Assembly: GCF_036429475.1 (NCBI RefSeq) | Contig: NZ_CP144125.1 | Location: 2,232,001-2,296,000 of the forward strand | Length of the DNA stretch: 64,000 nucleotides | From: Halalkalicoccus sp. CGA53 | Lineage (GTDB): Archaea; Halobacteriota; Halobacteria; Halobacteriales; Halalkalicoccaceae | Reading direction: 5' to 3' | In this document: positions 8,976 to 13,147 of the stretch, piece after piece | How positions within the stretch are numbered: the stretch's first letter is position 1 | How the letters are laid out: the number at the start of each line of letters is the position of its first letter | The notes under the pieces: model-generated | What the model was told of the DNA's origin: nothing | The model's database searches: none | The model's input: only the letters and a program-made list of their open reading frames with translations | Made by a program: the position numbers and the translations under genes

Positions 8976-10055
8976 TCAGTGGACCGAGATCGCGTTCACC
9001 GACCGATCGGAGAGCACGATCGAGAGCAGGTAGATCGCGATGGCGACGACGACGATCGACCCGCCCGCGGGCAGGCCCTGTCGGACAGAGAACGCGAAGC
9101 CCAGGAGGATCGAGAGCTGCCCGAACAGGATCGAGAGGACGAGCGTCTCCCGGAAGCTCGTGGCGACCTGCGAGGCGGCGGCGACCGGGACGACGAGCAT
9201 GGCGGCGACCAGGATCACCCCGAGGATCTGCATCGCGCCGACGACGACCACCGCGGTCATCACGATCAACAGCGCGTTGTACCAACGAACGTGGAGGCCA
9301 GCGACGCTGGCGGCCTGTTCGTCGAAGGTGACGAACAGGAGCTGTTTGTAGTTGTAGACGACGACCGCGACGACGACCACGCTGAGCAGCGCCATCAGCC
9401 GCGCGCCGTCGGCCGTGACGACCGTGATCTGCCCGAAGAGGTAGGCCTCGATGTCGATCGTCACCGACATGAAATCGCGACCCCAGCTGATCAGGAGCGT
9501 CCCGACGGCGAAGCTCCCACTCAGCATGATCGCGATCGGTACGTCGCCGTAGCTGTTGGTGTGCTCGATGAGCCACTGGAGACCGAGCGCGCCGAGGACG
9601 CTCACGACGAGCGCGACGAGCAGCAGCGAACCGCTCAGCCCGAAGAAGCCGGTGACCAGCAGGCCGACCGCGACGCCGGCGAACGCGGTGTGTGCGAGCG
9701 TCTCGCCGATCAGCGCCATCTCGCGGTGGACGACGAACGTGCCGACCATCGGCGCGACGATCCCGATCAGGACCCCCGTCGCGAGCGACTGCCACATGAA
9801 GGGGTGTCTGAACACCCGCGTCCCGAGGTAGAGGTCGATCCACTGACCGGCGATCATGAACTGCCCGTATGCCTGGGCACCGACGGGGCTCTCGCGCAGC
9901 CAGTAGAGCGCGACGAACGAGAGCATCACGGCCGCGAGCAACGCGGTACAGAGGAGACCGACGAACTCGACGGCCTCGCGCCGCGAGCGCGGTCTGAGCG
10001 GGTCCGTCGGCCGGGTGAACGAGCCGTCTGTGCCCTCGGACTCCCCGAGACTCAT
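8976..10055 (-). CDS. znuB: zinc/manganese-type ABC transporter permease
   Basis: A 359-residue inner-membrane permease of the ABC-3 family, with about eight or nine membrane segments. It carries the typical VGTFVVHREMALIGETLAHT loop near residue 125 (the EAA-like contact with the ATPase) and an AFAGVAVGLL segment after it. It would form the channel for the metal delivered by the binding protein encoded two genes upstream. The start overlaps the stop of the ATPase gene by 4 bases (ATGA), so the two are translationally coupled. The metal (Zn or Mn) is inferred from the neighbouring His-rich proteins. Confidence 0.9.
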   Translation of the reverse strand: MSLGESEGTDGSFTRPTDPLRPRSRREAVEFVGLLCTALLAAVMLSFVALYWLRESPVGAQAYGQFMIAGQWIDLYLGTRVFRHPFMWQSLATGVLIGIVAPMVGTFVVHREMALIGETLAHTAFAGVAVGLLVTGFFGLSGSLLLVALVVSVLGALGLQWLIEHTNSYGDVPIAIMLSGSFAVGTLLISWGRDFMSVTIDIEAYLFGQITVVTADGARLMALLSVVVVAVVVYNYKQLLFVTFDEQAASVAGLHVRWYNALLIVMTAVVVVGAMQILGVILVAAMLVVPVAAASQVATSFRETLVLSILFGQLSILLGFAFSVRQGLPAGGSIVVVAIAIYLLSIVLSDRSVNAISVH

Positions 10056-10855
10056 GGGTGGTCGTGGGTGACGATCCTCGCGGTCTCGCCGTAGGCACGG
10101 GTGAGCGCGTCGCTCTCGACGAACTCATCGGTGCTCCCGTGGTGGTACAGCTCGGTGTTGAGACAGGCGACGTGGTCCGCGTGGTCGGTGACGACCCCGA
10201 TGTCGTGTTCGATGAGGACGATCGTGATGCCGGTCCCGTTCAGCGAGTCGAGCAGGTCGTAGAACGCGTCCCTGGACTCCGCGTCGACGCCGACCGCTGG
10301 CTCGTCGAGCGCGAGCAGGTCGGCCTCGCTCGCGAGCGCCCGCGCGATGTACGCCCGCTGGCGCTGGCCGCCCGAGAGCTGGCCGATCCGTCGCTCCGCG
10401 AAGCCGGAGATCCCCACGCGGTCGATCGCCCGCTCGACCGCCTCGTAGTCCGTCTCGCCCAGCCGTCCGTGACCGACGTGGGCGAACCGGCCCATCGTCA
10501 CGCACTCACGGACCGTCACCGGCATCGTCTTTCCCCTGCTGGTCGCCTGCTGGGATACGTAGCCGATCCGGCCCCGGTCGTCGAACCGTCCGACCGGCTC
10601 GCCGAACAGCTCGACGCTCCCCGTGTCGGGCTCGAGGAGCCCGAGCATCAGGTGCATCAGCGTCGTCTTCCCGGAGCCGTTCGGCCCGACTAGGCCGAAG
10701 AAATCGCCCCGCTCGATTCCGAACGTGACGTCCGTCAGCGCGACGGTCTCGCCGTAGGCGAAGCCGACGCTCTCGAACGAGACGGCGAGCTCTCGCTCAC
10801 GGTGGTCGACCCCCTCGTCGGATCCCGTCGGTTCGCTCCGGCTCTCTGTTCTCAC
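10052..10855 (-). CDS. znuC: zinc/manganese-type ABC transporter ATP-binding protein
   Basis: A 267-residue ATPase with Walker A GPNGSGKTTL, the ABC signature LSGGQRQR, Walker B DLLALDEP and a switch His in IEHD. It energises the ZnuB-like channel on the cytoplasmic face. No ATG lies near the N-terminus; the frame starts with GTG at 10855, three bases after the stop of the binding-protein gene, so translation is probably coupled. The first 25 residues are an acidic extension common in haloarchaeal ATPases. Confidence 0.92.
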   Translation of the reverse strand: MRTESRSEPTGSDEGVDHRERELAVSFESVGFAYGETVALTDVTFGIERGDFFGLVGPNGSGKTTLMHLMLGLLEPDTGSVELFGEPVGRFDDRGRIGYVSQQATSRGKTMPVTVRECVTMGRFAHVGHGRLGETDYEAVERAIDRVGISGFAERRIGQLSGGQRQRAYIARALASEADLLALDEPAVGVDAESRDAFYDLLDSLNGTGITIVLIEHDIGVVTDHADHVACLNTELYHHGSTDEFVESDALTRAYGETARIVTHDHP

Positions 10856-10858
10856 GGT

Positions 10859-12259
10859 TCACTCCGCACCGAGTGCCTGTCGGAGCGACGGGATATTGAT
10901 CTCTTCCATCTGCTCGACCCAGCCCCAGCCCGCCTCGTTCCACTCGGGCGTCGTCCCCTCGACGGCGGTGAGGGGGGCTGCCTCGCTCGCGTCGCTGTTC
11001 TCTATGATCAGCTCGACCATGCTCGGCAGCTCCTCGTCCGGGTCCGGGCTCTCGAACGGGTCGTAGAGGACCGTATCGATCCCGTGTTCCTCCACCACCT
11101 CGATCATCCCCGCGACGTCGTCGAGCGACTCCGCGTCGTCCGGCGCGATCCCGACCGGCGAGTACAGCTCGAACCCGTAGCGCGCTTCGAGGTACCGGAA
11201 CGAGTCGTGGCTCGCGACGACCCCGATCTCGCGTTCCGCGTCCTCGACGAGCGCCGCGAACGCCTCGTCTACCCCCTCGAGGCGCTCGGTGTACGCCGCC
11301 GCGTTCTCCTCGAACGACGCCGCGTTCTCGGGGTCGACCTCCCCCAGACGATCCGCGATCGTCCCGACGATCTCCGTCGCGATCACCGGGTCGACCCAGA
11401 CGTGCGGGTCGGAGAACTCCGGGCTCTCCCCACCGGCCTCCTCGACGACCTCGACCGGGAGGCCGTCGTTCGTCGTGTCGAACAGCACCTCTCCGTCGGA
11501 GACGAGTTCGAAGACCACCTGCGTGCGGCCCTCCTCGACGCCGGTGACCCGCACGATCTCCCCGTCGGAGTCGACCTCGACGACCTCCTGGGCACCCTCC
11601 CTGACCCTCCCCCGTATCTGGAACGGCTCGTCATCGCCGAGCGGGAGCACCCGGTCTTCGGTGTCGACGACCACCCCGCCGACGCTCGCCGTGCCCTCGA
11701 GCGGGACGTCGGGGAACCCGCCGTGCCAGTGGCCGTCGTGCCAGTAGGCGACGACGTCGCCGGTTCCCGGATCGACGACGTCGAACTCGGCGATCTCTAC
11801 CTCCTCGCCGTCGAACACGTCGGCGTCGTCCGGTTCCGGGAGCTCCCCGCCCCCGTCGCCGCCGGGTAGCAGATACTCGCCGAGCCCCTCCATCCCGTCG
11901 ATCAGCGCGACCTCCGGGTAGTCCGATTCGAGCGTCGTGGCGAGGTCCTGCGCCCAGGCGAACTCCGGGCTGTCGAGGTAGACGAACGCGTCGGTCTCGG
12001 CGACGTCCACGGCGAGTTCGCCGTCGGGTTCCCAGCCGTGGCCCATCTCGCCCACGTCGACCGGGTTCTCGAACGAGAAGGCGTCCCCGCCGACCTCGTT
12101 CGCCCAGTCGTAGAGGCTGAAGAACGCCGCGTAGCCCGAGTGATTCCCGTCGCCGCCTCCGTCGTCTGCGTCCCCTTGCGGCTCGCTCAGACAGCCGGCC
12201 AGGGTCCCGAGCGCGAGGAGGCCAACCCCGCCGAGCACGCCCCGTCGCGTGTGGTTCAT
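10859..12259 (-). CDS. znuA: ZnuA-like metal-binding lipoprotein with an inserted HWH domain
   Basis: A 466-residue exported binding protein of cluster A-I. The N-terminus TRRGVLGGVGLLALGTLAGC is a Tat signal with lipobox Cys23. Family metal-site regions are seen at GEMGHGWEP (His73), DPHVWVDPV (His286), VASHDSFRY and DPFES. Between the first two, where ordinary ZnuA proteins carry a short His-rich loop, lies an extra domain at about 155-272 with HDGHWHGGFPDVPLEG. This domain is similar along its length to the neighbouring His-rich lipoprotein. The start is taken as 12259, because the upstream ATG at 12286 lies inside the promoter. It is first in the znuA-znuC-znuB unit. Confidence 0.9.
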   Translation of the reverse strand: MNHTRRGVLGGVGLLALGTLAGCLSEPQGDADDGGGDGNHSGYAAFFSLYDWANEVGGDAFSFENPVDVGEMGHGWEPDGELAVDVAETDAFVYLDSPEFAWAQDLATTLESDYPEVALIDGMEGLGEYLLPGGDGGGELPEPDDADVFDGEEVEIAEFDVVDPGTGDVVAYWHDGHWHGGFPDVPLEGTASVGGVVVDTEDRVLPLGDDEPFQIRGRVREGAQEVVEVDSDGEIVRVTGVEEGRTQVVFELVSDGEVLFDTTNDGLPVEVVEEAGGESPEFSDPHVWVDPVIATEIVGTIADRLGEVDPENAASFEENAAAYTERLEGVDEAFAALVEDAEREIGVVASHDSFRYLEARYGFELYSPVGIAPDDAESLDDVAGMIEVVEEHGIDTVLYDPFESPDPDEELPSMVELIIENSDASEAAPLTAVEGTTPEWNEAGWGWVEQMEEINIPSLRQALGAE

Positions 12260-12284
12260 ACGTCCGAGATTCGTCCGGACCGAC

Positions 12285-12300
12285 AAAAGCGTTATTATTC
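12285..12300 (-). promoter_or_regulatory. shared TATA/operator motif before znuA-like gene
   Basis: The minus strand reads GAATAATAACGCTTTT, 26 bases before the ATG. A near-identical ATAATAACACTTTT lies 25 bases before the His-rich lipoprotein gene at 13056. The AT part is the TATA box. The conserved ACRCTTTT that follows lies between TATA and start, a position suited to a metal-responsive repressor. Confidence 0.55.
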
Positions 12301-12372
12301 AAACGAACCAGGTTAACAACCCCTCCGGGCGAGCCCCGATCTCACCGGTACGGGTCGGAGACGACCGTCCGA

Positions 12373-13056
12373 TCAGTCGTCGTCGTGGTCGTCGTCAGTG
12401 TCGTGATCGTCCGCCTGATCGTCGTCGTGACCGTGGTCGTCGTCGTGACCGTGGTCGTCGTCGTGACCGTGGTCGTCCGCGTGATCATCGTCGTGACCGT
12501 GATCGTCGCCCTGGTCGTCGACGTCCTCCGGATTCTCGGCGACCTCGACGTCGATCGGGGGCGTGTCGTAGTCCGAGTGGTCGTCGTGCCAGAGCTGGAA
12601 GACGATCTCGGTGATCCCCTCCTCCTCGCCGAGGACGTCGACGTGGTCCCCGTGGAACTCGAAGTCGACGATCCCCTCCTGGGCGCCCTCCATGACCTCC
12701 GCCCGGAGTTCGTACCCGTCGCCGAGTTCGATCTCCTCGCCGTCTTCGTCCGCGATGTACGCGCCCAGCGAGATCTGGCCGTCGAGCGGTACCGGCGGGA
12801 GGCCGTAGTCCCAGTGGCCCCCGTGGACGAAGGCGGTCGTCTCGTCGGTCTTCCGATCGATCAGTTCGAACTCCGAGAGGCGCGCGTCCTCTAGCTCCTC
12901 GTCGTCGTGGTCGTCGTGATCGTCACCGTGATCGTCGACAGCGTCGTCGCCCTCCGTGGGGTCGTCGTCGGCCTCGCCGTCGAGACAGCCCGCGACGACC
13001 GCCGCCGCGATCGCTCCCGCGCTCCGCTTCAGCATCCGCCGTCTGGTCTGGACCAT
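12373..13056 (-). CDS. His/Asp-rich metal-binding lipoprotein (ZnuA-insert homologue)
   Basis: A 227-residue exported protein: Tat signal TRRRMLKRSAGAIAAAVVAGC with lipobox Cys24, an Asp/His linker (30-55), a compact domain at about 59-175 with VHGGHWDYGLPPVPLDG, and a C-terminal tail (about 183-227) of repeated GHDDDH-type units. The domain is homologous to the insert of the adjacent ZnuA-like protein. The His/Asp tail should bind divalent metal, most likely zinc. It probably buffers or hands metal to the ABC importer at the cell surface; that role is inferred. The tail is encoded by a tandem 18-base repeat. Confidence 0.85.
   Translation of the reverse strand: MVQTRRRMLKRSAGAIAAAVVAGCLDGEADDDPTEGDDAVDDHGDDHDDHDDEELEDARLSEFELIDRKTDETTAFVHGGHWDYGLPPVPLDGQISLGAYIADEDGEEIELGDGYELRAEVMEGAQEGIVDFEFHGDHVDVLGEEEGITEIVFQLWHDDHSDYDTPPIDVEVAENPEDVDDQGDDHGHDDDHADDHGHDDDHGHDDDHGHDDDQADDHDTDDDHDDD
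12420..12515. repeat. 18-base tandem repeat encoding His/Asp tail
   Basis: Several near-identical copies of GTGACCGTGGTCGTCGTC lie inside the His-rich lipoprotein gene, coding on the minus strand for GHDDDH units. Copy number could vary by slippage. Confidence 0.8.
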
Positions 13057-13080: not shown

Positions 13081-13094
13081 AAAAGTGTTATTAT
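13081..13094 (-). promoter_or_regulatory. shared TATA/operator motif before His-rich lipoprotein gene
   Basis: Minus-strand ATAATAACACTTTT, 25 bases before the ATG at 13056. It matches the znuA-like promoter in sequence and spacing, which suggests one regulator for both transcripts. Confidence 0.55.
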
Positions 13095-13107
13095 CTACCC
13101 AAGCAAT

Positions 13108-13147
13108 ATTAGTAATCCGAGTCATCGAATCGTTCTGGATTACTAAT
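13108..13147. repeat. 11-bp perfect inverted repeat between His-rich lipoprotein and YbaK genes
   Basis: ATTAGTAATCC (13108-13118) and GGATTACTAAT (13137-13147) are perfect inverses separated by 18 bases. The right arm covers the YbaK-like stop codon and the left arm lies just upstream of the promoter of the next gene on the same strand. It may be a terminator hairpin for the YbaK-like gene or an operator for the lipoprotein gene. The arms are AT-rich in a GC-rich setting. Confidence 0.5.

Follow-up and report, generated by a model that had tools for sequence, protein, structure and literature searches.

The N-terminal domain of PhtD, which carries an HxxHxH triad, passes Zn2+ to AdcAII in vitro, as seen by NMR (PMC3842936). 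Likewise, AztD hands zinc to AztC, and a loop of AztC is needed for this transfer (PMC6689063). The actinobacterial anchored-repeat ABC operon holds a metal substrate-binding protein (SBP) together with surface-anchored proteins, and in Corynebacterium diphtheriae it is regulated by zinc and Zur (PMC6711530). An archaeal counterpart of PhtD, ZinT or AztD was not found in a limited literature search. To our knowledge, few studies have addressed how organisms of carbonate-rich soda brines, at a pH near 10, acquire zinc, cobalt and nickel.

The locus described here lies in a haloarchaeal stretch of 64,000 nucleotides (the window), which spans positions 2232001-2296000 of a contig in a genome of 4.04 Mb. 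Two neighbouring proteins of this locus, the ZnuA-like P0001 and the His-rich P0002, have in common a domain of ~116 residues, referred to as DOM, which is inserted in P0001 (about residues 154-274) and forms the core of P0002. From the comparisons presented below, we infer that DOM is probably an extracytoplasmic module of metal importers that captures transition metals and hands them on.

The importer locus and the domain common to two of its proteins

The gene of P0001 (10859..12259, minus strand, ATG at 12259) encodes a Tat lipoprotein of 466 aa that resembles the SBPs of cluster A-I metal ABC transporters (Pfam ZnuA 7e-41, Foldseek). Directly 3' of it, on the same strand, lies the gene of a ZnuC-like ABC ATPase (10052..10855, minus), which overlaps by 4 bases with that of a ZnuB-like ABC permease (8976..10055, minus); homologues of both ORFs are found at the same place in related loci. 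The ORF of P0002 (12373..13056, minus) is translated into a His-rich Tat lipoprotein of 227 aa, composed of an RR signal with a lipobox, an acidic and His-rich linker, a free copy of DOM and a C-terminal tail of tandem His/Asp repeats lying outside DOM. The free copy is located at 12535..12882 (minus; profile match E 5e-47) and the inserted copy at 11438..11800 (minus; profile match E 1e-36). The gene upstream of that of P0002 (13143-13613, minus) presumably encodes a YbaK/EbsC-type protein, and no metal link was seen for it. The same genome carries another ZnuA-like SBP (L178:4234-5987) that has no insert and adjoins a gene of a DtxR-like regulator, a family recognised by eye; it is possibly part of a manganese system.

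The BLASTP comparison showed that residues 156-262 of P0001 and 60-165 of P0002 are 40% identical (E 7e-20), and the profiles of free and inserted copies matched each other in hhalign with a probability of 100 and an E value of 1.9e-49. When the window rows were excluded, the free-copy profile matched P0001 at 8.5e-29 among the six-frame ORFs of the window, while the inserted-copy profile built from copies outside the window matched P0002 at 3.6e-38. Apart from P0001 and P0002 themselves, neither profile matched any of the window's 575 six-frame ORFs or any of 1000 shuffled sequences. The insert of P0001 and the core of P0002 are one homologous domain, which confirms the alignment of the two segments that the first-pass annotation had proposed. 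Both proteins are strongly acidic and contain His, and their likeness could in principle reflect only the composition of haloarchaeal proteins; this explanation has practically no standing, as it is refuted by the match at 8.5e-29 with none in the shuffled sequences or other ORFs, by the identical predicted strand order of the free and inserted DOM and by the conservation of DOM in bacteria. A recent duplication was also rejected as the origin of the window pair, because in the phylogenetic tree the free copy and the inserted copy each cluster with the corresponding copies of related genomes.

Searches of the Pfam-A, NCBIfam and PDB sequences with single copies of DOM and with an alignment of 33 rows returned no match above chance level; a PDB match labelled precorrin isomerase (E 0.02) was dismissed, since it covers just 31 residues. 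For P0002, no Pfam or NCBIfam family was found above cut-off, no ZinT-like or other Pfam family appeared at E up to 1, and the AztD propeller model NF038015 did not match. ZnuA is the only Pfam domain of P0001, in which no ZinT-like domain was detected. The actinobacterial anchored repeat, TIGR03769, had no match in 33 DOM copies at E up to 1, and its search in 149 genomes of the phylum to which the Nitriliruptoria MAG belongs gave just 3 matches, all of them sub-threshold; TIGR03772 matches P0001 over the C-lobe only. The best match of Pfam PF04270 (Strep_his_triad), E 0.047, concerned 2 of the 33 copies, with only the HxxHxH motif in common. Many matches obtained with full-length P0002 covered the Tat signal alone, and only relatives covering DOM were kept; plasmid searches revealed no relatives of P0002. 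DOM is thus a domain absent from the searched libraries; the proteins built on it are probably accessory factors that recruit metal for importers.

Predicted fold, insertion position and histidine sites

The AlphaFold2 model of the free DOM is all-beta, with 11 strands (pLDDT 94.9, pTM 0.88), and the model of the whole P0001 (pLDDT 89.9) presents the same 11 strands in the same order at model residues 127-243. The confidently predicted fold is an Ig-like beta-sandwich. Foldseek matched the free DOM to Ig-like sandwiches (the S-layer proteins EA1 and SbsC, Rib and filamin) with a best E value of 7e-4 and a TM of ~0.5; these are generic sandwich domains, and none of them belongs to a metal transporter.

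The remaining part of P0001 is of the ZnuA type. Pfam PF01297 (ZnuA) matched residues 44-409 with an E value of 7.3e-41 over profile positions 3-224 of 263, that is, around the insert, and the Foldseek matches of the whole protein were the cluster A-I SBPs AdcA, YcdH and AztC (E 8e-19 to 4e-17), with AdcA at 8.3e-19 and TMt 0.86. The model shows a two-lobe SBP fold with a long linking helix (281-311). The motifs GHGWEP, DPHVW, SHDSF and LYDPFE stand at the alignment positions expected for the ligands His, His, His and Asp/Glu, an assignment that we take from general knowledge of ZnuA and AztC. Family match, predicted fold and ligand positions all point to a cluster A-I (ZnuA-type) SBP, whose specificity for zinc is putative.

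The insert follows the final N-lobe strand and precedes DPHVWVDP, and it takes the position at which ordinary ZnuA has its His-rich loop. This canonical loop is absent in P0001, in which both linkers flanking DOM are devoid of His. In all groups of aligned SBPs, the inserts occupy the same place, just before DPHxW.

Two histidine clusters were distinguished in DOM. Site 1, HxxHWH (H20, H23, W24 and H25), is preserved in full in all 42 inserted copies, and each of its residues is present in 82-98% of the 91 free copies. All three histidines of the site 2 triad, HGDHxH, are found in 14 of the 42 inserted copies and in 70 of the 91 free ones. The histidines of site 2 are correlated with each other at 0.25-0.66 and those of site 1 at 0.16-0.48, while the correlations between the sites are mostly near 0 and reach 0.21 at the highest; conservation and correlations were both computed over related, not independent, copies. 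The window copies deviate from the family pattern: the inserted copy has kept site 1 (HDGHWH) and lost site 2 (SDGEIVR), and in the free copy (HGGHWD at site 1, HGDHVD and HDDH at site 2) Asp replaces the third His of both triads. Judged by these residue patterns, the family would fit a division of labour in which the importer retains one metal site and the collector offers further ones. The first-pass annotation had described a dedicated HWH domain, used both free and fused and placed at the position of the ZnuA His-rich loop, and it agrees in these respects with the conserved HxxHWH, the homology and the insertion position; the predictions gave no sign of different folds.

Occurrence, genomic context and upstream dyad

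DOM was found in 74 of 391 sampled genomes of the class, representing 28 of 86 genera. The scan of a collection of named genomes yielded 55 DOM loci, which belong to haloarchaea, Thermoplasmata and bacteria, the latter including Syntrophomonadaceae, Tindallia, Izimaplasma/Mollicutes, Nitriliruptoria, Myxococcales and Gemmatimonadetes. The domain occurs in 7 of 98 genomes of the class of the Syntrophomonadaceae MAG and in 12 of 237 genomes of the phylum of the Myxococcales MAG. Most of the bacterial MAGs bear sample names of the Kulunda soda lakes (CSSed, B1Sed, T1Sed, T3Sed), whose pH is around ten (PMC6146748), and many isolates are named as alkaliphiles, e.g., Natrarchaeobius, Natronolimnohabitans, Halorubrum alkaliphilum and Salinadaptatus halalkaliphilus. 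The tie to soda lakes and haloalkaliphiles is descriptive, being read from the sample and isolate names.

The tree of 140 copies is a quick one, built without bootstrap on 120 columns of a short domain. On this tree the label "inserted" needs 9 changes, some of which may be losses, and at least 4 are forced by starred branches. The inserted copies of Halobacteria, Thermoplasmata and Izimaplasma lie apart, and that of the window belongs to an all-inserted haloarchaeal group of 25 rows (SH-aLRT 97). Repeated independent insertion is favoured because at least 4 label changes are forced and the inserts stand at the same loop position; the sequence comparison suggests such a history rather than proving a count.

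Among 67 distinct loci, a free DOM lies no more than 3 kb from an insert-bearing SBP in 24, beside an AztC without insert in one and near CbiM in 7 (one of them counted in another class too). In 16 loci an SBP with an inserted or tail DOM has no free gene nearby, and in 20 the free DOM has no importer in reach, many of these being on short MAG contigs. A permease is encoded near the insert-bearing SBP in 36 of 40 such loci. In the soda-lake Clostridia, the gene of a free DOM lipoprotein is flanked by those of CbiO and CbiM, with NikL coming next wherever this part was read; in loci L100 and L101 it lies within a tetrapyrrole/cobalamin cluster. A DOM-DOM protein precedes CbiM and NikL in an archaeal locus (L163), and a double-DOM protein precedes CbiM, CbiQ and CbiO in Halorutilus (L030). 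Two membrane proteins with a C-terminal DOM (L039:1130-2212 and L040:2448-3590) show a weak likeness, tested on L039, to the nickel/cobalt NicO family. The locus of the Nitriliruptoria MAG (L106) has the order permease, DOM-DOM, DOM-AztD fusion and AztC, in which the propeller resembles AztD (5e-28 with NF038015, below the curated cut-off, and 1e-25 with AztD of the PDB) and AztC matches at 2e-87.

A role of the domain in sensing, raised as an alternative in the first-pass annotation, would have DOM signal the metal status of the surface through the transporter. Its insertion in the SBP near the cleft is in line with this; however, the loci examined contain no recognised signalling or DNA-binding partner, kinase or regulator fusion, only a separate gene of a Fur-family regulator (L113:7319-7732) that follows an Izimaplasma operon with free and inserted DOM. 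Sensing is therefore highly improbable.

The number of copies per protein varies as well. Three SBPs (L077, L099 and L119) contain two inserted copies each, and those of L085-L087 contain an inserted and a tail copy. In two proteins of Thermoplasmata MAGs (L098:4624-6339 and L105:4666-6339), the C-lobe of the SBP stands before the N-lobe, followed by two DOM and preceded by one apparent transmembrane segment; this order looks like a circular permutation whose break point is the site of the insert. In the paralogous insert-bearing SBPs of L033, L121, L124 and L125, DAKFF replaces DPHVW, by which one metal His is lost, and an extra His-rich stretch separates DOM from the C-lobe. Large, apparently secreted proteins of 763-1049 aa with 1-3 DOM (L030:4677-7343, L030:11126-13414, L093:4783-7929 and L153:6816-9638) were also noted; those read contain a second repeated module, LLAETxVDxxHACLHG...VWNVTxxGxxGYVxFDA...FVFY, for which Pfam gave no significant match.

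Such tandem copies and C-terminal fusions would suit a scaffold, and Ig-like folds are common interaction modules. DOM could accordingly be a docking module whose face joins the free protein to the importer or dimerises the SBP, with histidines that hold a structural metal only and with His/Asp tails that deliver the substrate; the His-rich tail of P0002 does lie outside DOM. However, a scaffold needs neither a near-invariant HxxHWH nor two His clusters that vary independently, and several free proteins of the soda-lake Clostridia end with DOM and have no long His tail. We regard docking as unlikely, though less so than any other alternative to the capture and hand-off of metals by DOM.

Both genes of the window are preceded by a dyad. 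That of the P0002 gene, TTACTAA-N14-ATAATAAC-ACTTTT, is located at 13081..13115 (minus) and starts 59 bp before the ATG, and that of the P0001 gene, TTGTTAA-N14-ATAATAAC-GCTTTT, at 12285..12319 (minus), starting 60 bp before the ATG. Their common form is TTRYTAA-N14-ATAATAACRCTTTT. Exact ATAATAACRCTTTT occurs in the genome of 4.04 Mb at these two places only, and the looser dyad at four. The dyad is conserved across haloarchaeal genera: upstream of the haloarchaeal genes, TTNNYAA-N14-WTANNAA was found with exactly N14 in 17 of 27 SBP genes and 18 of 27 free genes, compared to 0-3 (SBP genes) and 0-6 (free genes) for other spacings. This contrast between spacings, and not the count of matches, is the useful control, because the pattern was chosen after part of the sequences had been seen. 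The dyad may be an operator that responds to metal starvation.

The common dyad also bears on the possibility that the free DOM proteins buffer or detoxify metal, sequestering its excess at the surface while the SBP copy limits uptake. The long His/Asp tails would suit low-affinity buffering, as would the 20 loci in which free copies lie away from importers. On the other hand, the free gene and the importer have the same dyad upstream, all recognised partners are importers (ZnuABC-, AztC-, CbiMQO- and NicO-like), and neither exporters nor resistance genes were recognised among the adjoining genes, whose annotation was not exhaustive. This makes buffering very unlikely.

Proposed metal transfer and comparison with known systems

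If DOM captures and hands on metals, as we think probable, the Ig-like sandwich would present the histidine triads HxxHWH and HGDHxH. Under metal scarcity, the surface lipoprotein P0002, equipped with a free DOM and a His/Asp tail, would gather Zn2+ or a different divalent metal, and the DOM grafted into the ZnuA-like protein would dock the collector and/or accept the metal via HxxHWH. From the inserted DOM the metal would move on to the four-ligand cleft, and the ATPase and the permease would import it. Hand-off is plausible because of the analogies with PhtD and AdcAII and with AztD and AztC, and because DOM is fused to an AztD-type zinc chaperone. The fusion to the AztD-like propeller and the presence in CbiMQO operons make a role in metal handling likely and exclusivity for zinc unlikely; since cobalt contexts exist, the metal of the window organism cannot be read off DOM. 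The two-part surface zinc relay proposed in the first-pass annotation is partly supported: the co-location of the genes and the common dyad also lend weight to a relay, but "zinc" is too narrow in view of the CbiMQO and NicO-like contexts.

More tentatively, and at somewhat less than even chances, DOM may represent an undescribed family that has spread between haloalkaliphilic archaea and bacteria, was recruited by unrelated importers (ZnuABC-type, AztABCD-type, CbiMQO and NicO-like) and entered the same ZnuA-type loop in several independent events, so that the metal would move in a homotypic relay from the free copy to the inserted copy and to the transport site. The recurrence of DOM beside several kinds of metal importer, largely in soda lakes, suggests a common tool for scavenging scarce metals, and the domain, present in two archaeal lineages and several bacterial ones, is a concrete and testable candidate for this task. 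It would also supply a likely function for many proteins in which no domain is annotated. Moreover, the apparently repeated insertion at the loop of chaperone-to-SBP transfer is a natural experiment on the working of this loop.

The locus resembles the PhtD/AdcAII system in that surface proteins with HxxHxH are encoded together with a cluster A-I zinc SBP, and the core HGDHWHG of DOM has the same spacing. However, the Pht repeats are short three-stranded units of a different Pfam family, and we know of no insertion of a Pht unit into an SBP. The anchored-repeat system (TIGR03769/TIGR03772) has a long SBP model of 486 positions, which is consistent with extra sequence between the lobes, presumably the anchored repeat itself; unlike it, DOM copies do not match TIGR03769, and P0001 matches TIGR03772 in the C-lobe only. 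In AdcA, an accessory metal-recruiting domain is likewise fused to a ZnuA-type SBP, but this ZinT-like domain is of another family and sits behind the ZnuA part, whereas P0001 shows the ZnuA Pfam only. AztD and AztC also combine an extracytoplasmic protein, a ZnuA-type SBP and a loop region, and an AztD-type propeller is one of the fusion partners of DOM; AztD itself is a beta-propeller, while DOM is predicted to be an Ig-like sandwich within the SBP loop itself. With ZnuA, P0001 shares the SBP fold, the four-ligand site and the operon with ATPase and permease, but where ZnuA has a His-rich loop, P0001 has a folded domain of ~116 residues that also exists free.
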